From Nannochloropsis oceanica (Eukaryota > Sar > Eustigmatophyceae > Eustigmatales > Monodopsidaceae): DNA of 64,000 nucleotides. The notes under the pieces are model-generated. The model saw only the letters and a program-made list of their open reading frames with translations, ran no database searches and had not been told where the DNA came from. The translations under genes and the position numbers were made by a program. Positions 12,057 through 59,974 of this stretch are shown here, piece after piece. Positions within the stretch are counted from its first letter, which is position 1. The number at the start of each line of letters is the position of its first letter. The stretch lies in assembly GCA_004519485.1 (NCBI GenBank), contig CP038123.1, forward strand, positions 21,001 through 85,000. The letters are read 5' to 3'.

Positions 12057-14110
12057 TTACACCAAACGCATCCGCTTCCTTCCCCTCCCACCCCTATCAT
12101 CACATAAACCCTGCCCTCGACGAAGTCGACGAAACCCATCCCGCGCTCTGCTTAACTGGTCTCCATTTTCGTTCAACGTCATCATCACTTCCGGCCCCTC
12201 CATGTCCTCCTCTTCCCTCAACCCAAGCTCCTCTCCACCCGTACCTCCTCCCTCTCCTCCAAGCCCATCCACGCGTAGTTCCGCCAGCGTGGCCCGCAAC
12301 GGTTTCAGCAGCCTCTGTCGAAACGCCTCAGACTGCTTCCCACCCCCCTGTTCCAGCACGTCTAATTCTTCGACCATATTACCCAACATGATCAGCTCCT
12401 CCGCTAGGTTCGCGGTGATCCTCCTTCGGTGTGACCCCCGTCGACAATCATCATCATCATCATCACCAGCAGCAGCAGCAGTGGCAGTGGTGGTGGTACC
12501 AGTGGCGTAATGTGATCGTACGCGTGTCGCAAGAACTTGGTCGTCCACCTCCCCCTCCTCCGACTCCACTAGCTCTTGCTGCTGGGCACTCGCCCGAGGC
12601 GCGCCCGACATCCCCCTTCCCTCCCTCTTCCTCTTCCACCCTCCTTTTCCCCCCTTTCCCCCTTCCTTTCCTATGTCCTCTTCCTCCTCTGCACCACTAC
12701 GACCACCACCACCCCCACCATCGTCGCCGCCCTCCTTAAAAAACTCGGCCAATCTCATCCCCTCTCCTTCCCTTTCTCCCTCCACTGCCCGCATCACCGG
12801 CGTCCGGATCATAAAATGCATCAAAACATTTTCACGAAAAGCCACCAATGCCACCTCCGACAAGTACAATGTGTTCTCCCCCCCTCCTTCCCTCTCTCCC
12901 TCCCCACATATCGTCGTCGTCCGGAACCTCTCTCCCGAGATTTGATCGTTCATCTTCATGAAAAACGACGACACTTCAAAGACCCAGGCGCTGTACACCG
13001 AGAAACACCACAATAGATCCTGTAGGAGATATCGATACCCACCCACCACCCCTTTCTCCTCTAAACGCGCCTCCCTTCCTCGCATGTGCCGCACCACATC
13101 CCTCCTCAATCCCTCGGCTTGAAGAAAAAGTTCCGCCCGCATGCACGTCCACAGCAACGGCCAGTCCCTCTGTGTCAGTTTATTCACACACCGCTGGAAG
13201 CTGCTCGTGATTGGGATCAAACTATCATCCCTCTGACAAATCTCTTCCCTTGTCGCGTATAGCCGCGTCCGCAAGGCCACCCGACAGGAGTTACTCATCC
13301 ACTCCCACCCCCTATGCAGACTGTCCCATTTCGCTCCCAGCATCCTGTCCAATGCCTGCACTTTATACACGTAATAGAAGTCTCCCGTTTGCTTATTCGC
13401 CACCTCCCAGGCATTGCTCTTGCTGGTGCCGGCCATGAACCACCGGGAGTGGGATTCCCCTTCCCCTGTGGCGATTTTGGTGCTTGCCTCCAGGGCGATT
13501 GCATCGGCTCGTCGTTTTCTTTCCACGGACAGAAGTAGCTTTTCTCGCTCGGGTTGCAGTGGGGGAGGCATAACGGCAGTCGCGGCAGTAGCAGCAGCAG
13601 CAGCAGCTTCTCTTGATCCTTCGCTTGGCTTTAGGGTCTGCTCGTCTTCTTCCTCCTCCTCGTCTTGGTGTTGTTGGTCTTGTTGTTGCTGGTGCTGCTG
13701 CTGCCGAATCGCCGCTGCAGCTGCTTTTATATTGCTGTTCCGCCATACCTCGGCCAATTCACTATAGTCTTTGATCACTCTAAAACACGATGATGCTCCT
13801 TCCTCCCCTCCTCCTTCCTCCCCCCCTTCTCCTCCTCTTCCCCGTTCAGATGGAGAGGGGAGAAGTATCTCGCGTTCAGCCGAGCAGAATTCACAATGCA
13901 GCCCAAAGCGATCCGCTTGCAACAAGCCACAGGCTTTGCATGACCATATTCCCGGCCTCTTGGTTGAGGAGGAGGACAAGGTGGAGGAAGGGGAGGAGGA
14001 CGAGGTGGAGGAAGCGGAGGAGGAAGGGGTCTGACTACTCCGACATTTGACAGCCGCGGGTGTGCGTGGCTCTGCTGCTGTTGCTGCTGCTGCTGATGCT
14101 GCTGCTGCTG

Positions 14111-14149
<39 letters not shown>

Positions 14150-15059
14150 TCATCAATTCTCCACAATCCCTCTCGACTAGGGGTCGCCAGAGACTCTCAT
14201 GCTCGGCCATGCCCGCCCATGCCTTACTCACTGTTCTCAATCGAACGTATTCGAAATGGTCGTGTAAAAAGCCTAGGCAATGCAAATGCAAGTCGGAGGG
14301 CAGTAAACGGAAGGGTCCACCGCCGTGAATTAGCACGGGGTTTGCTCGAAGTAAAACTGCTAGCGGCGCTCCTGCTGTTGCAGCTGCTGTTGCTGCTGCT
14401 GCTGCTGCTGAGATCAAGGAAGGGGATGTAGAGGAAGATGACACTTTATTCCATTTTCCCTCATCCCCTATCACCACTACATCGTCGTCGTCGTCGTCGT
14501 TCTCTTCCTCTTCCTCTTCCAATTCCATCAAATCCTTGAATCTCTCTTGATGCTGCTCCTGTGCCTGTCGCTCTTGCTGTCGATGCGCCCTCGTCGCCGC
14601 CGCGTTCTTCTCATGCAAGCGGACCCGCCATTGATTCAACCCACCACAAGCCTCGCAGCTTCGGTTCTGCGGCGCGTTCAGGCATGTGCACTTGACACAA
14701 TTCCAGGGCGACTCCAATTCTTGCCGCAGCGACGATAGTGACAGCACTCCACCTCTAACCCCAGCATCCTCCTCCTCCTCCTCCTCGTCCCTGCTCGTCA
14801 TCTTCGTGCTTGTCGAAAAGGCAAATCTTCGATCCTTTTCCAAGCGGCGTTGCTTTTGCCGCCGGTCCTGGGAGACGGCCTGCTCCACGCTGCTAATCGT
14901 TGGTAATGACATGGAAGTGGATGTGGAGAACGACGAGGGGAGCATAGGAGGCTCATTACTGGCACTGGCAGAAAAGTGAGAGGAGGAGGAAGAAGTTGAA
15001 GCGACAGGCCGCAGGAGCTCAAAGCCTGGGAGATCGAAGTAGATGCCGGAGGAGGCCAT
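12057..15059 (-). CDS. RanBP2-finger / F-box protein with cullin-like C-terminal half
   Basis: A single-exon 1000-residue protein. A RanBP2-type zinc finger lies at about 118-142 (W119, C121, C124, C135, C138, with the NAPQNRSC core). An F-box lies at about 250-299 (RLLPSDLHLHCLGFL ... LRTVSKAWAGMAEHESLW). A second finger of the same W-x-C-x2-C...C-x2-C type lies at about 371-394. Polyalanine, polyglutamine and acidic runs fill the linkers. Residues about 575-800 resemble the N-terminal cullin repeats: KWDSLHRGWEWM, VNKLTQRDWPLLW, a helix ending FFMKMNDQ, then VALVAFRENVL and AVEGEREGEG, which matches the cullin pattern of aliphatic-FR-x-V followed by ER-x-GE. No C-terminal cullin-homology or neddylation domain is seen. 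The F-box should bind Skp1 and the RanBP2 fingers may bind ubiquitin or RNA. The cullin-like call is my reading of spaced residues and needs a profile search. Confidence 0.75.
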
Positions 15060-15721: not shown

Positions 15722-16400
15722 TTACTCGGCGGCGGCGATGGCGCGTGTGTAGATGATCTGGGAGTGGTGCACCGAGATGGGTTTAATCAGACCCTTCTCC
15801 TTGAGCTCACGCAGAGCGGCACGGGCCAGAGAACCATTAATCTTGAGGCGCTCGACCAGAGAGGAAGGAGTGATGAGCTTGGACTTGGGGATCTCCGTCA
15901 ACAGACGGTTGTTGTACATCTCCTCGTCGAAAAGCACCTTGTTGGCGACCTTCTCACGCATCTTGCCCTTGGACCACTTCTGCTCGAGAGGGGGAAGGGG
16001 AGGAAAGGGAGGAAAAAAGAATTGAGTACGTGTCCCCTTTGAATAGAAGGACACTTCCCCACTCCCAATACTCCAGTCCCGCTTCAAGGTGTACACGAAC
16101 CTTCTTCTTGCTCTTTCCGCCCGCCATGGCGGCGGCGAGCTTTTGCTCCTTTGTCTTTTGTTGGACCTTGGGGGGCTGTGGTGAGACGGAGGGAAGGGAG
16201 GGGGGAAAGAGATGATGGGATGAGCATTACGTCTTGTTGTGTGGCTAGACAGGCGAGCATGCTCCACTATCTGATACACATGTATACAGGGCACTACAAA
16301 GCACTCATGGCAGCTAATAGTCCTCCGTTGCTGGCATGCTCTTTGCTCTTTTCCCTCCCCTCCCTCCCTCGCTCTCTTCATCCCACCCGTGACTTACCAT
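15722..16400 (-). CDS. RPS25: 40S ribosomal protein S25 (eS25)
   Basis: Small-subunit ribosomal protein eS25, which lies near the E site and contributes to IRES-dependent initiation in other eukaryotes. Exons are 16400-16398 (the ATG alone), 16175-16101 and 15979-15722, giving 112 codons (111 aa), the normal length. The Lys-rich start ([17 protein letters not shown]) and the winged-helix core with [26 protein letters not shown] and [14 protein letters not shown] are diagnostic. The first coding exon consists only of the start codon followed immediately by GTAAGT, a layout often seen in ribosomal protein genes. Confidence 0.95.
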
Positions 16401-19324: not shown

Positions 19325-20881
19325 TCAGAACCCCTTGCTGTCAAGCCTCAGTATAGGCCCTCCCAAAGGACAAGGCATCCACTCCTTACACCTCACCCAA
19401 CCCTCTTCCTCCCCCTCTTCACCCTTCTCTTCCTCCACTTCCTCCTCTCCAACCCCAACCCACGGCCCGAGGCCCAGCCCCTGTGTCTGCACAGGAAGAC
19501 AAGCCGGAGAGCACATATATTCCCTCTCTGCACTCGTCCAGCTGCCCTGCGCCTTGTCCCTTAAATTAAACCGTATCCCAGGGGCCCGTCGCAAGGCAAA
19601 TAAAGCCTCGGATCGTCCATAGGCAAAGTGGGAGTGCCAGTCTTTGCTTCGAAGGTATGAGAGCCACATGCTGTAGGTATACGGGAAGGGGGAGGTGGTG
19701 GGGGAGGGGGGGCTTGTTACTCCTCCTTCTTCTGCTGCTGCTTCTGATTCTGCTGTTCTTGCTGCTTTCTCTTCTTCTCCTACAGTTACTCTTTTCCCTT
19801 CTCTACACTGAACCATGCCGGTGGCAGCAAGTCGGGAAAATAAGGAGTGGGCGAAGCCCGGAAATTTTCGTTGGAGGCGAATTAGCAAGGGAGCATATAG
19901 CTGTCGATGCTTGGCTTCGTGCATTGCTTTGATCTCAGGAGGGGTGTGTAGGATTGTTGTAGGGAATGTGGTTGGTTTTGTTGAGACTGCTGAGGCGGCC
20001 ACTGCTGCCGCTTCGGCTTCGAGGTGGTGGTCGGGGAGGAGGAAGAAGGAGGTCTCGGGGGAGGAAGAGGAGGAGGAGCTTTCTTCTGGTGAGATGCGTA
20101 CCAGGGCAGGAAGGAGGAAGGTGGTGACAAAGGAGGGTGTGACCGAAGCGAGGAGTCCATCCAAGGCTTCAGCCAAACGAGCGTCACTAGCCGTCTTGAT
20201 TCCACCACCACCGCTAATACTACTGCTGCTGCTGCTGCTACTGCTACTGTTGCCACTGCTGCCATTGCTGCCATTCCCATTCCCCACACCTTTTTCTTTC
20301 GGTGCCCGACATGCTCGGCACAGGGCATTAGGGGATTCTTCCTGTGCCGCCAGCGCCACATTTTTATAGGAAACCAAAATGTAAGTGGCGGCGGCGGCGG
20401 CTGACTCCAGGTCATGCGCCTGCTTCTCCCAGTACCCTCGGTAAAGCCAATCCAATAAATGCTGGGCCCCCATTCTAAGTGTGGCCAGCGAAGGAAGACT
20501 CGCATGTGTAGCTTCGTGACGGAGATCTACCAGCCACTGCGAGATCCCCAAGCGGGCAGCCACGGCATTTACTGGCTCAGCATAAAATTTGGTTTGTAGC
20601 CCTTCGACGAGACCATTGATAGCCCGTGTGATCACCATGCCGTACAAATTCCGAAGCTCCAACGCCGATCGACTCCCATTAAGACCACTTTCAAGTAAAG
20701 CTACTTCTAACAGGGATGCGGTGGCGTCTATGGCCACGGGAAGTCGACCCCGGGCACGCCAGGCCTTGACTCGCCCTACACCCCGCAGCCGGCTGTCTGT
20801 GTCGGGTGAAAAGAGCCACTTGCTAGTCTCGGTCCATTCGGCCCAATCCTGCCAGGGTAGGACCCTCGGAGTGTATTCCAT
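19325..20881 (-). CDS. LAS1: LAS1-like pre-rRNA endonuclease (ITS2 processing)
   Basis: Homologue of Las1/LAS1L, the HEPN-type endoribonuclease that cuts ITS2 in pre-60S particles together with Grc3. A single exon from ATG 20881 encodes 518 aa. The Las1 domain occupies about the first 170 residues: VLPWQDWAEW, a hydrophobic helix around LLEVALLESG, LRNLYGMVITRAINGLVE, and the HEPN active-site segment WLVDLRHEATHASLPSL, where R-x4-H is the catalytic motif. The rest is poorly conserved, with Ser/Gly and Glu runs, and ends with a Las1-like tail region (LSYLRSKDWHSHFAYG). It converges with the ferredoxin gene, 288 bp apart. With KRR1 it is the second ribosome-assembly gene in the window. Confidence 0.88.
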   Translation of the reverse strand: MEYTPRVLPWQDWAEWTETSKWLFSPDTDSRLRGVGRVKAWRARGRLPVAIDATASLLEVALLESGLNGSRSALELRNLYGMVITRAINGLVEGLQTKFYAEPVNAVAARLGISQWLVDLRHEATHASLPSLATLRMGAQHLLDWLYRGYWEKQAHDLESAAAAATYILVSYKNVALAAQEESPNALCRACRAPKEKGVGNGNGSNGSSGNSSSSSSSSSSISGGGGIKTASDARLAEALDGLLASVTPSFVTTFLLPALVRISPEESSSSSSSPETSFFLLPDHHLEAEAAAVAASAVSTKPTTFPTTILHTPPEIKAMHEAKHRQLYAPLLIRLQRKFPGFAHSLFSRLAATGMVQCREGKRVTVGEEEKAARTAESEAAAEEGGVTSPPSPTTSPFPYTYSMWLSYLRSKDWHSHFAYGRSEALFALRRAPGIRFNLRDKAQGSWTSAEREYMCSPACLPVQTQGLGLGPWVGVGEEEVEEEKGEEGEEEGWVRCKEWMPCPLGGPILRLDSKGF

Positions 20882-21618
20882 ATTGCTGAGAATGTGGCAG
20901 TGCTGATGGATCAAAGTCGCGGTGCTGCAGTCATCTCTGTGGTGTGTGGGATGGGGGAAGGATGGGGCAAAATCGGTCAAGGGGTGGGGAGGTCAGTTAT
21001 TGGTATTTTGATTTGGCGCCGCTTGATGTGAAGGTATGAGGGAATCCAGAGGCCCATGGAGCCTATCAAGGGTTTATCTAAGATGGAAGTGGGGTGTTGG
21101 CGCAGTTTTGGACGCTTGACGATTTGATTGTGGTTTGCTTTGGCGTGACCATCCGCTCGGCCGCGGCAAACGGTCTTCTCCAACCTCCCTACTTTAAAGC
21201 CTTCCCAGAAAAAAATAAAAGCAGAGGTAAAGCCTTTTTAACGTTCAACCGTCAGTCAGTGAGAGTCAATGAGTCAGAAAAATAATTTGTAGTTTTACTT
21301 TTGTTGTTGGTTTCGTTGCTCCGTTGCTTTCCGTGGCTCCTGCTGTTGCTGCTGGTCCTGGTAGCACAGGCGAGGGGAGTCTTGAGCTCTTCCTCACTGC
21401 TGCTCACTTCCATAAGTACATATGCGAAAGAGCAAAGCTTTTCCTTCAAACTTTCTGTTTTTCGTTCCCTCAATCCATCTTCTTTACTCTCTTTTCCTCT
21501 CTCTACCCTTCTTTTCCTTCATTTTCTCCTCCTCCCTGCGTTTACATACACGCTTACTCTCACTCCCTCGCTTTATCCTACGTCTCTCCCACGTACCTAT
21601 TATCAATCGTTCACCCAC
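20882..21618. other. Intergenic between LAS1 and SLC35B1-like genes
   Basis: No gene is supported. The right half is pyrimidine-rich on the plus strand and lies in the 3' region of the transporter gene. Confidence 0.4.
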
Positions 21619-28396: not shown

Positions 28397-30895
28397 ATGT
28401 CGGCCTCTACCTTCCGCCTCCGCGCGCCCGGGGAGAGCTACCAGACGCGCAAGGTCGCTTTGGCCGCCGCTTTGGCAGGCGTCGAACTCACAACAAGCCT
28501 TCAAGAAGACCCCGCAGCCCTTGCCCAACTGGTCCCGCATGGCAAGTCTTTGATTCTTGAAGTGCGATCTACATCATCATCACCATTGTTTCTTGCCCGG
28601 AGCAATGCAGCCTTGCGTTTCCTGGCGGAGAATGCACCGGCCGCGGGCTTGTACGGCGAGACCCTGTATGAAGCTGGCCTAGTGGATCAATGGCTGGACT
28701 TCTCGTTCAATAGTCTTGAGGTCCCTGCGACGGTGCTGCGCTTACCTACGGCGGCCCAGGGATCTGTGTCGGATGCCGTGAAGGAGACGGCCCGACGGGA
28801 AATTTTGGGGGCAGTGGGTGTGCTTGACAAGGCGTTGGGAACAGCGACGTTTTTGGCCGGGGATAAGTTGAGCTTGGCGGACGTGGCCATATTTTGTTCC
28901 TTACACGATTTGCTGGTCAGAGGAAACGAGGGCGGGGTACCTACAGTTGTTGTTGATCGTTTTCCCGGGGTGTGGCGCTGGTTTTTGACCTTGTTACACC
29001 AGCCATTGTTTCAGAAGGTGGCCGCGCCTAATGCGGCTGCTACAATCAAGGCCTTCGAGGCGAGGCTACCTAAGGTGGGCTCGTCAAAAACTGGGGGTGG
29101 GAATGGAGCCAAACACAGCAGCATTGAAGCAGGGGATGACAAGAAGAGGGGTAGAGCAGCTGCTGGCGCTGGTGCAGTCGCGGCCAAGGCGGCGTGTTCG
29201 AACACCACAGGCAGCAGCAGCAGCAGTACAGGCGCCAGCAGACCTCCTCTCGTCCTAAAGGATGGTCCCGCTTCCTCTTTATTCCGGCGTGGTCGAACTG
29301 TCATCAAAGAGATTCTGGTGGAGGTTGGGGGGGGGGTAGCAGTAGGAAAGATCGTGACAATCAAGGGGTGGGCGCGCACGATCCGCGAAGCCAACAAGGG
29401 AGCCTTGCTCTTTATCGAGTTGAATGATGGCTCGACGGCCATGTCGATGCAGGCGGTATTGGAGGTGGAGAAGACGGAGGGGTTCGAGTTTGCTACTCCT
29501 GCGAACTGTGGGGGTGTGGGCGCATCGTTCGAGATAACAGGGATGCTGGTCAAGAGCCCGGCGAAAGGACAAGAGATGGAATTGCATGCCACGCAGGTGG
29601 TGGTGTTGGGCAAGGTATATGGAGGGGACAATGGGGAGATAGGGGGAAAGCTTTACCCTTTGAGTAAGAAGGCCCACTCGATGGAGTTCTTGAGAGCGAA
29701 CGCCCATTTGCGCGCCCGGACCCGAGTGACAAGTAGTGTGATGCGCGTGCGTCATGCCATGGCCTATGCGACTCACAAATTTTTCAATGACCGCGGGTTT
29801 AAGTATGTGCATACACCATTGATCACGGGGGCAGATTGCGAGGGGGCGGGGGAGATGTTCACCGTCACGACGCTTTTGCCGGACAAAGGGTCTCCGAAGC
29901 TCCCGACCTTGCCAGACGGCTCTATTGATTTTTCGAAAGATTTCTTTGGGAAACGGACGAGCTTAACGGTCTCGGGGCAGTTGAATGTGGAAACATATGC
30001 ATGCGGTTTATCGGATGTGTATACGTTTGGGCCGACGTTCCGAGCGGAGAATTCGCATACGACGAGGCACTTAGCAGAGTTCTGGATGATCGAGCCTGAG
30101 ATAGCCTTTGCCGATTTGGACATGGACATGGCCTTGGCGGAGGATTACTTAAAGTATTGTGTGTGGTACGCACTCACGCACAACGAGGACGACTTGGTCT
30201 TGCTGGAGAAAGTCCCGGGGGGGGAGATGGGCTTGAGGGACCGACTGAGGAATGTGCTCGAGAATCCGTTTGTCCGCATCACATATACAGAGGCAGTGGC
30301 GATTCTGGAGAAAGACTTGGCGTCGAAGAAGGTGAGCGGACGGAATGGGAGTGGGCATTAAAAGATGTTGCTGGTGCCCTACCCCCAAACCCAAAAAATA
30401 TATACCGACACTCCTAACTCACCTTAATCCAATTGCTATCAATATCACACACCCACTCTTGCCCAGGTCAAGTTCGAAGTGAAGCCCGAGTGGGGCTGCG
30501 ACTTGGGGAGTGAGCACGAGCGGTACCTGACGGAACAAGTATACCGGCGACCGGTGATCGTCACCAACTACCCCAAGGATATCAAGGCCTTTTACATGCG
30601 CTTGGACGAGGGGGGAAAGACGGTGTCAGCCATGGACATCCTGGTGCCCAAGATTGGCGAGATCATAGGTGGGTCCCAGCGTGAAGAGCGCTTGGACGTG
30701 CTGAAGGCACGGTGCCTCGAGATGGGGCTGGAGGAGGAGGCGTTGTGGTGGTACTTGGAGTTGAGGAAGTATGGCTCGCATAAACACGCGGGTTTTGGGT
30801 TGGGCTTTGAGCGTTTGATTTTATTTGTAACGGGTCTAGAGAATATCCGAGATGTGATTCCGTTCCCGCGTTTCCCGGCGCACGCCGAGTTTTGA
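28397..30895 (+). CDS. NARS: Asparaginyl-tRNA synthetase with N-terminal GST-like domain
   Basis: Charges tRNA-Asn with asparagine (EC 6.1.1.22). Two exons (28397-30331, 30467-30895) give 787 aa. Residues about 1-215 resemble a GST fold; the C-terminal GST hallmark [15 protein letters not shown] is clear. A basic/Ala/Ser linker follows. An anticodon-binding OB fold ([20 protein letters not shown]) lies at about 310-420. The class II core starts near residue 430: motif 2 region [21 protein letters not shown] and motif 3 [15 protein letters not shown], ending [13 protein letters not shown], typical of AsnRS rather than AspRS. No targeting peptide is evident, so it is probably the cytosolic enzyme. 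The GST-like part may dock it to other translation factors. Confidence 0.93.
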
Positions 30896-39597: not shown

Positions 39598-40419
39598 ATG
39601 TCGGGCGACTCGAAGTGGCAGATTTTCATCGGGAATGTAAGCAGCTCCACCACGGATGAGAGATTGCGCCAGGTCTTCTCCACGGTGGGGCACGTGGTGA
39701 ATGTCCGCGTCATGACTGACCGCGGGGACCCTAAGAAAGGTGAGGACTCACTCACCACAAGCACACAAGCACACAAGCACACAAGCACACAAGCACACAA
39801 GCACATATAATACGCGGCGCATGCATGTTAGCCTCCATGCTTATACATCTTACTGTCCGCCACTACAACCTTCTCTGGGCCCGCCTCGTGATTCCTCGCC
39901 ACCGACTCACGCTTCCCGCTCCTCCCTCTCTTCCTCCTTCTCAAACAGGTTACGCCTTTGTGGAATATGACAACCCCGACACGGCACTTACAGCCATCCA
40001 AAACCTGGGCAATGTCGAAGTGGATGGGCGGCGACTGCGTGTCGGCTTCAGCAACAACAGCGGATTGGAAGCGATAGCAAAGCAACGCGGACTTACCATA
40101 ACGCCTAACGGTGGGGTGACAGGCAAAAATCTCGAAGGGGTACTCGCTAATTTCCCGTTGTCGGATATGTACGACATGATTGCGCATCTTAAAGAAGTGG
40201 CCGAGACCAAACCTGAAGAACTTCGCCTCCTCCTCATCTCGCACCCCCAAATCGCGGAAGCCATCGTCCACATGCAAGTCAAGATCGGCATGATTAAGCC
40301 CCTGACTCGTGCCTCGGATCAGCAACCTTACCAGCAACAACAGCATCAACAACAGCAGCAACAACAACCACTTCAACTGCAACCACCGGTACATCTAGGT
40401 GCCTTTGGCCATCAGCAGC

Positions 40420-40486
<67 letters not shown>

Positions 40487-40838
40487 GCACATTGGTGGGC
40501 TTGCGGCAGCTGGTGGATACTACCAAGCGCAGCCCCCCTCTCATTTTACTCCTCAGCAAGCGGGAGGGTGGAGCGGACAGATGCCCCCCTTGCCACCGCC
40601 TGTGCCATTCGACCCTTCTGCAGCTGCGGGTGCTGCTGGGGGTGGTGGAGGGGGTTTAGGCGCATTGGGAGCTCTGCTTGCGGGCGGGAATCAGGCCATG
40701 GCGCAAGAAACGTTGCGGCAGGTGATGAGCATGACGCCGGAGCAATTGGCTGGAATGGAGCCAGGGCAGAGGCAGCTGATGATGGAATTGCAGCAGGCGG
40801 TATTGATGCAGACGCAGCAGGCTGGAGGGATGAGGTAG
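39598..40838 (+). CDS. CSTF2: CstF-64 (cleavage stimulation factor subunit 2)
   Basis: Nuclear pre-mRNA 3'-end processing factor that binds the GU-rich downstream element. Two exons (39598-39739, 39949-40838) give 343 aa. The RRM is at residues 7-83: RNP2 IFIGNV and RNP1 GYAFVEY, with the intron exactly at the RNP1 glycine. The CstF-64/77-binding hinge follows at about 120-165 (LSDMYDMIAHLKEV, LLLISHPQIAEAIVHMQVKIG). A Gln-rich linker with long CAA/CAG runs (about 40400-40485) comes next. The conserved C-terminal three-helix domain includes VMSMTPEQLAGMEPGQRQLM. The protein is shorter than animal CstF-64 because the pentapeptide repeat region is replaced by the Gln linker. Confidence 0.93.
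39757..39806 (+). repeat. (ACACAAGC)n octamer repeat in CSTF2 intron
   Basis: About six perfect tandem copies of an 8-bp unit, close to the 5' splice site of the single CSTF2 intron. Confidence 0.9.
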
Positions 40839-55876: not shown

Positions 55877-58800
55877 CTAATTATCTCCCCGCAAATCAAT
55901 CCTCTGCGCCCTCCTAATCCAGCTCCGCGCCTTCTCCTCCTTCCCACTCGCCGCCCTCAACCTCCCCGTCCGATCTCTGACCACCGTCCCTCCCTCCGCC
56001 CCTCCCGCTCCCCCCCCCGGCAACGCCGCATCCTTGAATGCAAAACTCCACCTCCGCTGCTGCACCCCCTCCCCACTCGCCCCCTTCCTCCCCTTTCTAC
56101 TCGCCTCTGACGCGGATAAGTCCCTCAACACCTCCCGAGGCTTCCACAGCTCTCCCTCCCCCACCACCCCCTCCTCCTCCTCCCCCTCCTCGAGGAAACC
56201 CCTCCTCACCCCGTCACTTACTGACGGTTCGTTGTCGTTCAAAACCCGGAACTTCAACGAGGGCACGTCATAGTGCTCCCTCGGCTTCAGGTCCACTAAT
56301 ACCGGGTCCAGCTCCATCCGCAAGTCCTCGCTCATATCGTAGACAGTGTCAAGCAGCTCCTCCTCGATCTCCTCCACGATCCGATCCTTTACCGCGGCCA
56401 CATACTCTGCATACGCCCCTCCGTCCGACCGCAAGTGCTCCAAAAGCGCCTTGGCTGCCCGTGCTCGCTCCTCAATCCCCTGCCCCTCCTTCCCCCCCTT
56501 CCTCGCCCTCAAGGCATCAAAGACCGACGCATTTCCTTCTATATGCGAACCAATCGTCTTCTCCAAAGCATCGGCCGCCAGTAGTCGCACCTCCTCCACC
56601 TCTACCGGCAGCCCCCACCTCTCCTCCACCTCTCTCACGTCATCTCCCCCCACCTTCCCCCCTGCCTCAATCATCTCCTCTCTCACTACCTTCAGCCCCT
56701 CCTTCGACCGGATTCCCGCCTGGAAGCAATCTTGCGTTACCAGCCGTTGCGCCAACCTACCCGGATGCGCCCCCATGAGCACATCCCCCCTCCCTACCTC
56801 CTCCTGACTAGTCTTCATCAGCTTGAGCAGTATTCCCTCCACCCACCCCTCCGTCCGCCCAGCCAGGGCTGCCAACTCGGCAATCGCAGGTGCTTCGATC
56901 CGTTTCCCTCCGTACAGCTGCTCCACTAACAGGGAGTACGCCGATGCCGTCACCTCCGTCTTCCCTCTGAATGCCTGTGTCAGCTGCGGCAGTAGCCCGG
57001 AGAGTACCTCTTTATTCAGTCGGTCCAATGCCTCCAACCTACCGCTCACCGCCAACGTCACCAAGTACCGGCGCAAGACACCTACATCGCCTTTCTTCCC
57101 TCCCCCAATCCGCGAGGCTTTCAAGGCCTTGATGCGAGCTTCTTTGAGAAGGGAGAGCGTATGGGCCACGTCTTGCTGGTAAAGACGTTCGACGGCACGG
57201 ACCTCAGAGGAGGAGACCTCAGAGGAGGAGGAGGAGGGAGGGAGGGAAGGGGACCTGCCCGTCCCTTCCTCGAGGGCCAGCCTCATTACTTCTAAAGAAG
57301 AGGAGGAAGAGGAAGGGGAGGAGGAGGAGGAGGTGCAGAGGGCGTGCAGTTCTGCTGCAACCTCCATCGGGTCCACCCGATCACGCAAGGGTTGACACTC
57401 GTGCATGTCCATCAGAAACATCGCGAACGCCCGCTTACTAATCCTCGTCATCATCGCGGAGGAAGACGAGGGCGAGGAAGGGAGGAAGAGCGAGGACGAG
57501 GACGACAACGAAAACTCCGCATACAACGTCTTGACATACTCCCGCAACGCTTCCTCCCTCCCACCCTCCCTCCCGCCCTCCCTCCCCCCCCCAGCCGCCA
57601 ACAGAGTTCTCAATGCCTGCTGCTGCCTATCCAAATTAATCTCCACCGATCCATGCACTCCCTCCTCAAATAAGCCCTCCACCTCCTCCTCCGGCATCCC
57701 AAGAATCTCGTCTATCACCTCCTGCTCCAATCCTACCTCCCCTCCTTCCCTCCCTGCCTCCCCCCAGAGTGCCTCGTCCGACCTCAACACCCGCCTGTGC
57801 TGCTGCAGCACCTCCCACTGGACATCTTCAAACGCCGTCCTCCCTTCCTCCTTCCCTCCCTCCCCCTCCTCCTGGACTTCCGCCACGGCCTCGTCCCGCA
57901 ACAACTCCATGTACTTGACCAGCTTCTCCTTCCTCCCCTCCTCCTCCCCACTCTTCACGCCCTGCACCAGCACCCCGCGTCGTAGCCGGGCTGCCAACCG
58001 CTTGATCTCCCCTACCACTCTCTCCCGCGTCTCACTTAACTCTTCCATGGTCACTATTCGAGGTCCTAGTTCCTGCCTGATTGACTTCATCAGCCCCCTC
58101 TCCTCCTCCTCCATCGCCTTCATCGCCCCCTCCTCAGCCTCCCCTTCCTTCCTTCCCTCCTCTTTCGCGAGGGCGACCCTCTTCTCATGCACCGGCCGCA
58201 GGAGAGCGAACAACTCAGCGCACCTTCTCTTCTTTCGCCCGTATTGCTCCGTCGCCTCGTCCAATTCCTTCACCTCGTAAAGCGACACCGCCGGGTGCCT
58301 TTCCTGCCTCCCTCCACCCCCCTTCTTCTCGTGTTGCACCCGTAGATGAGCGAGGAGGAGGCCCAGTCGCTCTTGCTCGAGACCCATCCACACGTGGTAC
58401 TGAAGGAAGGCCGGGTCTTCCAGCACGCCCTCCTCCCTCCTCTCCAGGATCTTGAACCCGTTCAGAGGGTCGGGGACTTCGTCTTGGTTTTTCTCTTCGT
58501 ACGCCCAGGTGGTGTTGTAGATGATATTTTCATTCTCCGTGGCAATGGTGGCCGTCTGTTTGTCTAGCTTGGAAATTAACTCATCAAGCGTCACGTCATC
58601 CACCTTGTCCTTAAACGGCTTCATCATCTTCTCCGCCTCCTCACCTACCAACCCCATCCTCTCAACCAACAACGCGTGTTGCAACGCCGCTTGAATAGGC
58701 AGCATCTCCTTCTCCACGGGCTCATACCCCAGCGGCCGACACAAGTCTTCCATCGTCTCTAACCCGGACTCGTCATCCAACAACAACAACTCGCTCGGAT

Positions 58801-59449
58801 CCGCCAACTTCCCTCCCCCTCCCTTTCCCTTCCCATATTTCCCATTGCTTTTTACAGCAGTACCCGCGGCATCGGGCTCCCCGAAAATGTCGTCTTCTTC
58901 AGTGTACAACGTGCCTTGAAGTCGTCTCTCCACCTCGGCAGCTTTCAATTGAATAATCGCCGCTACCCTCACCCTACTCAGGTTGAACAAATATGACAAC
59001 ACCGCCGCGTCAAAAATTTCCGGTTCCAGCTTATTCAGCCTATAAATTTCCTCTTTGCGAGCATCTGAGACGTAGGCAAGCAGGGAACGGTAGACCTCGG
59101 GATTGCTCTCAACGGGCTCTGCCTCTGTCACGCCTCCCCTGTCCTGATCTTCCCACCACCCCGATTCGTGATACTTGAACCCTCGGGTTATAATTCCCTG
59201 GGAAACAGGCACTTGAGAGAGGCGGAAAGATGATGATGATGATGAGGATGATGAGTAGCAGGATAAGGAGGAAAAGGCGGGGAGGAAGGGTAAGGTTGTC
59301 TTGGTCAGCGTCCGCAGCTCCCGACTTGATTGATGGCGTGTCACCACCAGCGTTCTCCTCCGACCCGCTGCACAAGCGCAGGCCCCACCGCCTTGTGCCG
59401 AGGCGGCCGTAGCAACTGCCGCTATGCGTCTCAAGCCGTAGCGGAGCAT
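55877..59449 (-). CDS. Very large mitochondrial protein with Bot1/mS45-like N-terminal part
   Basis: A single exon of 1190 aa. The ATG at 59449 starts a basic Arg/Ala/Ser mitochondrial presequence (MLRYGLRRIAAVATAASAQG). After HESGWWEDQDR comes a segment, ARKEEIYRLNKLEPEIFDAA ... VLSYLFNLSRVRVAAIIQLKAAE, that resembles the DNA-binding-like helix repeat of Bot1/eukaryotic mitochondrial regulator proteins (mitoribosome mS45). The long centre is charged, helical and Glu/Lys/Arg-rich with Ser runs. The C-terminus has RRWSFAFKDAA and GGTVVRDRTGRLRAAS, which also looks like a ribosome-associated ending. A mitoribosomal or mitochondrial expression role is inferred. The size is several times that of fungal Bot1, so the family call is moderate. 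Confidence 0.65.
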   Translation of the reverse strand: MLRYGLRRIAAVATAASAQGGGACACAAGRRRTLVVTRHQSSRELRTLTKTTLPFLPAFSSLSCYSSSSSSSSSFRLSQVPVSQGIITRGFKYHESGWWEDQDRGGVTEAEPVESNPEVYRSLLAYVSDARKEEIYRLNKLEPEIFDAAVLSYLFNLSRVRVAAIIQLKAAEVERRLQGTLYTEEDDIFGEPDAAGTAVKSNGKYGKGKGGGGKLADPSELLLLDDESGLETMEDLCRPLGYEPVEKEMLPIQAALQHALLVERMGLVGEEAEKMMKPFKDKVDDVTLDELISKLDKQTATIATENENIIYNTTWAYEEKNQDEVPDPLNGFKILERREEGVLEDPAFLQYHVWMGLEQERLGLLLAHLRVQHEKKGGGGRQERHPAVSLYEVKELDEATEQYGRKKRRCAELFALLRPVHEKRVALAKEEGRKEGEAEEGAMKAMEEEERGLMKSIRQELGPRIVTMEELSETRERVVGEIKRLAARLRRGVLVQGVKSGEEEGRKEKLVKYMELLRDEAVAEVQEEGEGGKEEGRTAFEDVQWEVLQQHRRVLRSDEALWGEAGREGGEVGLEQEVIDEILGMPEEEVEGLFEEGVHGSVEINLDRQQQALRTLLAAGGGREGGREGGREEALREYVKTLYAEFSLSSSSSLFLPSSPSSSSAMMTRISKRAFAMFLMDMHECQPLRDRVDPMEVAAELHALCTSSSSSPSSSSSSLEVMRLALEEGTGRSPSLPPSSSSSEVSSSEVRAVERLYQQDVAHTLSLLKEARIKALKASRIGGGKKGDVGVLRRYLVTLAVSGRLEALDRLNKEVLSGLLPQLTQAFRGKTEVTASAYSLLVEQLYGGKRIEAPAIAELAALAGRTEGWVEGILLKLMKTSQEEVGRGDVLMGAHPGRLAQRLVTQDCFQAGIRSKEGLKVVREEMIEAGGKVGGDDVREVEERWGLPVEVEEVRLLAADALEKTIGSHIEGNASVFDALRARKGGKEGQGIEERARAAKALLEHLRSDGGAYAEYVAAVKDRIVEEIEEELLDTVYDMSEDLRMELDPVLVDLKPREHYDVPSLKFRVLNDNEPSVSDGVRRGFLEEGEEEEGVVGEGELWKPREVLRDLSASEASRKGRKGASGEGVQQRRWSFAFKDAALPGGGAGGAEGGTVVRDRTGRLRAASGKEEKARSWIRRAQRIDLRGDN

Positions 59450-59974
59450 GCTGCCTGTGTTGTTTGTGCGGGGAGTAAGGGGAGAAGGGGGACAGGGGGG
59501 TGAGTATCTAGGCCTACCATGCGGAGCGATGCTGCCGCTGATGATGACGATGACGATGGTAGTCAAGCAAGGGACAAGGGGAGCATTGAACTGCCATCCA
59601 GCTGCACGTATATTCAACGAACGGTACCAATACGGTGCTGTGTGCAGAGGTGATAATGGTGCCCTGTCATGGTGGAATGGCGGGCTTGGAGGAGCGCACT
59701 TGTTTGGTGCACGCCGCGAGACTGAGGCTTCGCTAAAGACAGACGGGCGCGGAAAGCAAAGAAGCCTCCAGTTGCCTATCCCTGGGGACTCATTTAGCTT
59801 GGAGACTTATGTATTCTCCGACCATCCTCCTCTTCCCTAACAGAAACAGGTTCATCGTCTTGGCTCGGCGTTGAAAGCGGAAGCAGCCGGTGGACGTTCG
59901 AACGCAGCATCTCTGATTTCCGAATCAGCCTCCACTCCTCTTCTTCCTCCCTACTTCCGCCGCCTCCTCTTATC
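59450..59974. promoter_or_regulatory. Divergent intergenic region (Bot1-like / SLC35B2-like)
   Basis: 525 bp between divergent start codons; no additional gene or motif seen. Confidence 0.35.

Follow-up and report, generated by a model that had tools for sequence, protein, structure and literature searches.

A probable lineage-restricted F-box protein of Nannochloropsis oceanica with two finger motifs and a conserved helical core of weak cullin resemblance

Can a single polypeptide carry both the receptor and a piece of the scaffold of an SCF ubiquitin ligase? The question is raised by an open reading frame (ORF) for 1000 amino acids on the minus strand of Nannochloropsis oceanica contig CP038123.1, at 12057–15059 of the window, the 64,000-nucleotide stretch of DNA that we analysed. 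The initial annotation had read its product (P0001) as a RanBP2-type finger, an F-box, a second finger and, further downstream, cullin N-terminal repeats. Should the helical core of this protein prove to be a cullin repeat, parts of a receptor and of a scaffold would be fused in it, and this would offer a direct handle on the capping of SCF assembly or on competition for it. To our knowledge, such a receptor–scaffold fusion has been described in no other lineage, and none appeared among the paper titles searched.

The ORF was confirmed at the proposed position and length by its conservation in relatives and by an NCBI protein record. This record, the hypothetical protein VYU27_002518 of N. oceanica (P0002, 999 amino acids), differs from P0001 at four positions (126 C/Y, 208 S/P, 218 A/gap and 314 A/S). 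Three near-full-length relatives, P0003 (933 amino acids), P0004 (949) and P0005 (922), are 68%, 54% and 50% identical to P0001 over residues 536–785, and their alignment displays a module order common to all four proteins: finger 1, F-box, finger 2, core, C-terminal block and basic tail. P0006 (340 amino acids) and P0007 (391) are fragments from the same family. The long low-complexity tracts of this region and the open frames that overlap on its two strands would suit a long ORF that arose by chance in biased sequence, but that explanation is already refuted by the protein-level conservation (50–68% in residues 536–785, in three other records with an identical domain order), and a near-identical annotated protein exists; we give it practically no weight. 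The conservation indicates that the ORF is a real coding gene.

The family appears to be lineage-restricted. The core is single-copy in its own genome, with one match at E ≤ 10 in 29.3 Mb on 32 contigs. The first search of the protein database returned four proteins at E ≤ 0.01 among 1321 scored candidates, and a masked alignment search for wider relatives returned six at E ≤ 1 among 7990, all of them members of the P0001 family; the database includes many other eukaryotes, of which sequences sharing short exact words were within reach. The literature search found no paper on VYU27_002518, and the titles retrieved on F-box/cullin chimeras or on Nannochloropsis F-box proteins, with subscription journals mostly outside the scope, included none on P0001 or its architecture.

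The F-box claimed for this protein was confirmed. It occupies residues 250–294 (14178–14312, minus strand), and PF12937 matches residues 252–294 with E 7.7e-7 and 29.2 bits against a curated cut-off of 24.3. P0003 is also above this cut-off (31.8 bits), and P0004 (19.9), P0005 (18.9) and P0007 (20.9) are under it. The region aligns in all four of these relatives; P0006 is a fragment that lacks the F-box part.

Both fingers named in the initial annotation were likewise recovered. Finger 1, of the RanBP2/NZF type, spans residues 115–143 (14631–14717, minus strand), and its residues 119–138 read W-x-C-x2-C-T-x2-N-x6-C-x2-C, which is the C-x2-C-x10-C-x2-C spacing of NZF/RanBP2 fingers with a tryptophan ahead and an asparagine between the cysteine pairs. 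PF00641 (cut-off 27.0) gives 6.7 bits in P0001, 17.0 in P0003, 20.3 in P0004 and 27.2 in P0005, so that P0005 alone of the four finger 1 sequences scanned is above the cut-off. The weak matches of finger 1 to PDB sequences include the fingers of TAB2/TAB3 (E 0.018–0.71) and NPL4 (E 0.23), which belong to PF00641 and have the same pattern. Finger 2 spans residues 369–400 (13860–13955, minus strand) and reads W-x-C-x2-C-x11-C-x2-C at residues 372–392; no Pfam family matches it above cut-off in the window protein or in the relatives scanned. All five aligned sequences (P0001–P0005) retain the four cysteines in both fingers, and P0007 also retains those of finger 2. A short conserved motif around FRVIKDYSELAEVWR, evident from the alignments, lies at residues 424–442 (13734–13790, minus strand).

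The available text of PMC5135002 describes ubiquitin binding by NZF fingers through a T-F/Y pair followed by a hydrophobic residue. TAB2, TAB3 and NPL4 carry the T-F/Y pair, whereas finger 1 of the window allele has T-C and thus departs from the motif. The pair is T-Y in P0002, T-F in P0003 and T-L in P0004 and P0005, and this variation makes ubiquitin binding by finger 1 uncertain. Within N. oceanica, the ubiquitin-contact position, residue 126 (14682–14684), is cysteine in the window allele and tyrosine in P0002 (phenylalanine in P0003), possibly a natural variant in ubiquitin binding.

SCF receptors typically pair an F-box with an adjoining interaction module, and the genome appears to hold the partners that a receptor would need. 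Skp1 (PF01466) has one match (E 2.3e-28), a PF00888 match elsewhere in the genome (L003) contains a CUL1-like frame whose best PDB matches are Cullin-1, a further PF00888 match (L005) lies near it, and F-box-like matches number 37 at E ≤ 1, with 17 marked as above cut-off. The SCF system is therefore likely to be present. Like the SCF substrate receptors of the PF12937/PF00646 type, P0001 has an F-box over cut-off followed by downstream modules; it differs from them in that Pfam recognises neither WD40 nor LRR nor kelch in its downstream core and in that fingers stand on both sides of the F-box. We propose, with a probability of about 0.6, that P0001, an F-box protein restricted to the lineage of Nannochloropsis-type algae, most likely serves as an SCF substrate receptor or adaptor. 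Its F-box would hold it on Skp1–CUL1, the NZF-like finger 1 would recognise ubiquitin or a partner that carries it (the motif being incomplete in the window allele), and the client would be bound by the core (residues 536–771) and the C-terminal helical block together. The sub-threshold F-boxes of P0004, P0005 and P0007 and the T-C or T-L pair of finger 1 argue against this assignment.

Some F-box proteins act outside SCF, and P0001 might do so, with a role that involves no Skp1- or CUL1-dependent ubiquitination. RNA and proteins are both possible ligands of RanBP2-type fingers, the T-F/Y pair is missing from some relatives, and the alignments show a conserved basic C-terminus (12060–12092, minus strand), ending K-R-M/R-R-L-V/L in P0001 and P0003–P0006, which is a possible nuclear localisation signal. 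However, the F-box is kept in the alignment, and the PDB sequences nearest to finger 1, weak as these matches are, are ubiquitin-binding NZF fingers. We consider the role outside SCF improbable and continue with the SCF receptor as the preferred reading.

Downstream of finger 2, where cullin repeats had been read, the protein has a conserved helical core of 236 residues (536–771; 12747–13454, minus strand), 211 of which follow from the start of the first long predicted helix, and, nearer its end, a C-terminal helical block (residues 880–933; 12261–12422, minus strand) conserved in P0003–P0006. The core helices appear in AlphaFold2 models of low confidence: the whole protein (alignment of five sequences) gave a pLDDT of 35, and residues 536–935 with five relatives gave 38, so that the models are too poor to count for or against a cullin fold. 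A Foldseek search with the second model, equally too poor to weigh, listed 33 matches at E ≤ 10, none of them at E ≤ 0.001 and none a cullin. The core profile found nothing at E ≤ 10 among PDB sequences. The core is an unusual, lineage-restricted domain on which no Pfam family exceeds its cut-off; it is undescribed in Pfam, NCBIfam and the PDB sequences, and the protein database showed it in the P0001 family only. Among the blocks that had been offered as cullin signatures, KWDSLHRGWEWM, FFMKMNDQ and VALVAFRENVL are present and lie in stretches conserved in the relatives; AVEGEREGEG contains a species-specific insertion seen in P0001 and P0002, at a place where P0003–P0006 have EGD and a three-residue gap, and loses its standing as a signature.

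The resemblance to cullins is weak but repeatable, and it links residues ~650–760 to cullin repeat 1 and the first part of repeat 2. The core is also helical and weakly collinear with repeat 1 (PF00888) over this stretch, and in the helix that follows the FFMKMND block it shares the FR. Among the six members of the core alignment (A6), one, the excised core of P0003, matched PF00888 and no other Pfam family at E ≤ 10; the match (E 0.03, 13.5 bits) covers 108 residues (115–222 of the piece on 46–137 of the model). Profile–profile comparison of the six core sequences with five cullin N-terminal domains gave a score of 28.8 (P 0.0035, probability 9.3%); with 14 cullins it gave 28.8 (P 0.0034, 9.4%), with cullin set A5 29.4 (P 0.0026, 11.6%) and with 122 cullins, of which 118 came from a CUL4-dominated list, 25.4 (P 0.011, 3.7%). 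In an earlier comparison based on four core sequences, P was 0.0014 and the probability 7.1%. The decoy runs, which covered the five- and 14-cullin profiles only, produced no equal of the real score in 200 column-shuffled and 200 block-reversed decoys for the former (0/400; maxima 26.8 and 19.3) and in 400 of each kind for the latter (0/800; maxima 27.7 and 26.1); the reversed core scored 12.9 against the five cullins and the reversed profile of 14 cullins scored 18.8. Furthermore, the CUL1-group (P 0.02), CUL3-group (P 0.02) and CUL4-group (P 0.3) profiles and the CUL1-like sequence of the same genome (P 0.11) aligned to the same stretch in the same register.

A background set of 476 pieces of six-frame ORFs, drawn from the window and 20 other loci in this genome (264 kb in total), placed these scores in context. 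P0001 was equalled by none of the pieces under the 14-cullin, 122-cullin and A5 models, and P0003 by 0, 3 and 0, respectively, so that both outscored all 476 pieces in two models and P0001 did so in all three. The corresponding counts were 16, 32 and 5 for P0004, 1, 9 and 0 for P0005, 9, 32 and 5 for P0006, and 20, 20 and 61 for P0007, which ends ahead of the cullin-resembling stretch; P0004 and P0006 were thus matched or beaten by 5–32 pieces, which counts against a cullin origin. As the family members are related, their comparisons with cullins are not independent tests, and together they amount to a single comparison with a P of about 0.003. The naming of a cullin in the initial annotation adds no independent prior, since it came from the same resemblance in the same letters.

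Other results speak against a cullin. Pfam scans of the window protein, whole and in cut pieces, reported no PF00888 match at E ≤ 10, with HMMER filters that drop most matches above E of about 0.1, and the same was found for the other four members of A6, full-length P0003 and two family consensus sequences. The initial annotation had named the lack of a cullin in profile or structure searches as its refutation. The window protein's own sequence indeed gave no cullin, but the refutation is blurred by the match in the excised core of P0003 and by the profile comparison whose score 0/1200 decoys reached. The best score of the family, these 13.5 bits, is far from the curated PF00888 cut-off of 33.2. 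A genome-wide PF00888 search, which scored 14 first-look candidates, yielded 16 matches at E ≤ 10; they are spread over six contigs and all lie outside the window. Elsewhere in the genome there is a diverged cullin-like frame around G000:C28:159333-159530 (L008; 27.6 bits, below cut-off), with a tail that, by eye, we take to be APC2-like.

One of the two family consensus sequences, neither of which matched a cullin, gave BAP (E 0.17), and one of eight decoys matched NAD_kinase (E 0.26). Over so many trials it is therefore not rare for some family to reach E 0.03, and what is notable is which family came up. Further matches in the cores of the relatives, Rota_NSP3 (E 0.0012, in cut P0007), Zn-C2H2_12, CRCB and DUF7567, were judged to be chance.

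Real cullins behave differently in these comparisons. Single real cullins (three from N. oceanica and two PDB chains), each left out in turn, were recognised with probabilities of 94.3–100% in five of five cases, against 3.7–11.6% for the core with the mixed profiles and 0.1–2.4% with the subgroup profiles. Against CUL4 only, four of the same five reached 42–99.9% and the P0001-family core 0.3%. An HMM of the core, run without filters on 122 cullins and their reversals, gave no real cullin more than 4.0 bits, and reversed cullins already appeared at rank four and beyond. The resemblance is concentrated mostly in one helix: the CUL4-only and CUL1-chain-only comparisons gave P values of 0.2–0.41, and the PDB CUL1 chain alone (P 0.41) aligned only KWDSLHRGWE with IWDDLRAGIQ. 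The motif (L/M)(D/N)R.(Y/W)(V/I), with which the long helix closes and which we drew from the five cullins compared (L001, L002, L003 and the PDB CUL1 and CUL3 chains) and which is found in all five, is absent from P0001 and P0003–P0006, where MNDQIS or LNDQIS stands in its place.

The extent of the core agrees poorly with a cullin N-terminal domain. In the available text of PMC4403949 this domain is three repeats of five helices, and in that of PMC9507964 CUL1 residues 1–410 contain all three. Three repeats at the size of those of CUL1 would probably not fit into 236 residues. P0001 has no match to the remainder of the N-terminal domain; the Pfam scan of the whole window protein reported neither a C-terminal cullin-homology nor a neddylation domain, in keeping with the absence that had been claimed. 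The C-terminal block could be fitted by eye as the rest of repeat 2, but on its own it gave P values of 0.25 and 0.34 against cullins, and we gave the fit no weight as evidence. We also looked for a closer source in this genome's diverged cullins and rejected it: among 96 frames from nine loci (L003–L008 and L010–L012), the best score against the core profile, 24.3, came from an F-box locus (L011), above all frames of the cullin loci tested, including the CUL1-like one (19.2).

In sum, the claim of cullin repeats retains a sub-threshold resemblance, mostly in one helix, which 0/1200 decoys equalled even though its probability is at most 12%, and the claim of receptor and scaffold in one chain retains its receptor half, the F-box and the fingers. 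That the core is a remote cullin relative is, in our judgement, unlikely, and we are equally doubtful of the specific form in which a diverged N-terminal piece (repeat 1 with the beginning of repeat 2) would unite receptor and scaffold in one chain. The core would then mimic repeat 1 (CR1), through which cullins 1–5 dock receptor modules according to the accessible part of PMC9507964. A copy lacking the C-terminal domain could cover its own Skp1–F-box head or tie up another, acting as a regulator or decoy. That P0001 caps itself or captures receptors in this way, in competition with CUL1, we hold to be distinctly more improbable than the kinship itself. The multi-cullin assembly of CUL7–FBXW8 with CUL1 is a precedent for an unusual coupling of an F-box protein to cullins, but its F-box protein and cullins are separate chains and its CUL7 lacks CR1, as the same excerpt of PMC9507964 describes. 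The sequence comparisons point instead to an ordinary F-box protein, probably an SCF receptor or adaptor, with an undescribed helical core that is possibly a remote cullin relative.

Several other open frames of the window were noted. A putative open frame of 1246 amino acids at 55877–59617 (minus strand) has no Pfam match at E ≤ 0.01. A single ORF at 28397–30361 (plus strand) combines a GST C-terminal domain, an OB-fold anticodon-binding domain and a class II (D/K/N) tRNA synthetase domain. Two ORFs belong to families of RNA-processing factors, one with a Las1-like domain at 19325–20980 (minus strand) and one with a CSTF2 hinge/RRM at 39825–40838 (plus strand). The next minus-strand ORF of at least 200 amino acids upstream of the F-box gene, at 15722–16381, carries a ribosomal protein S25 domain (PF03297).
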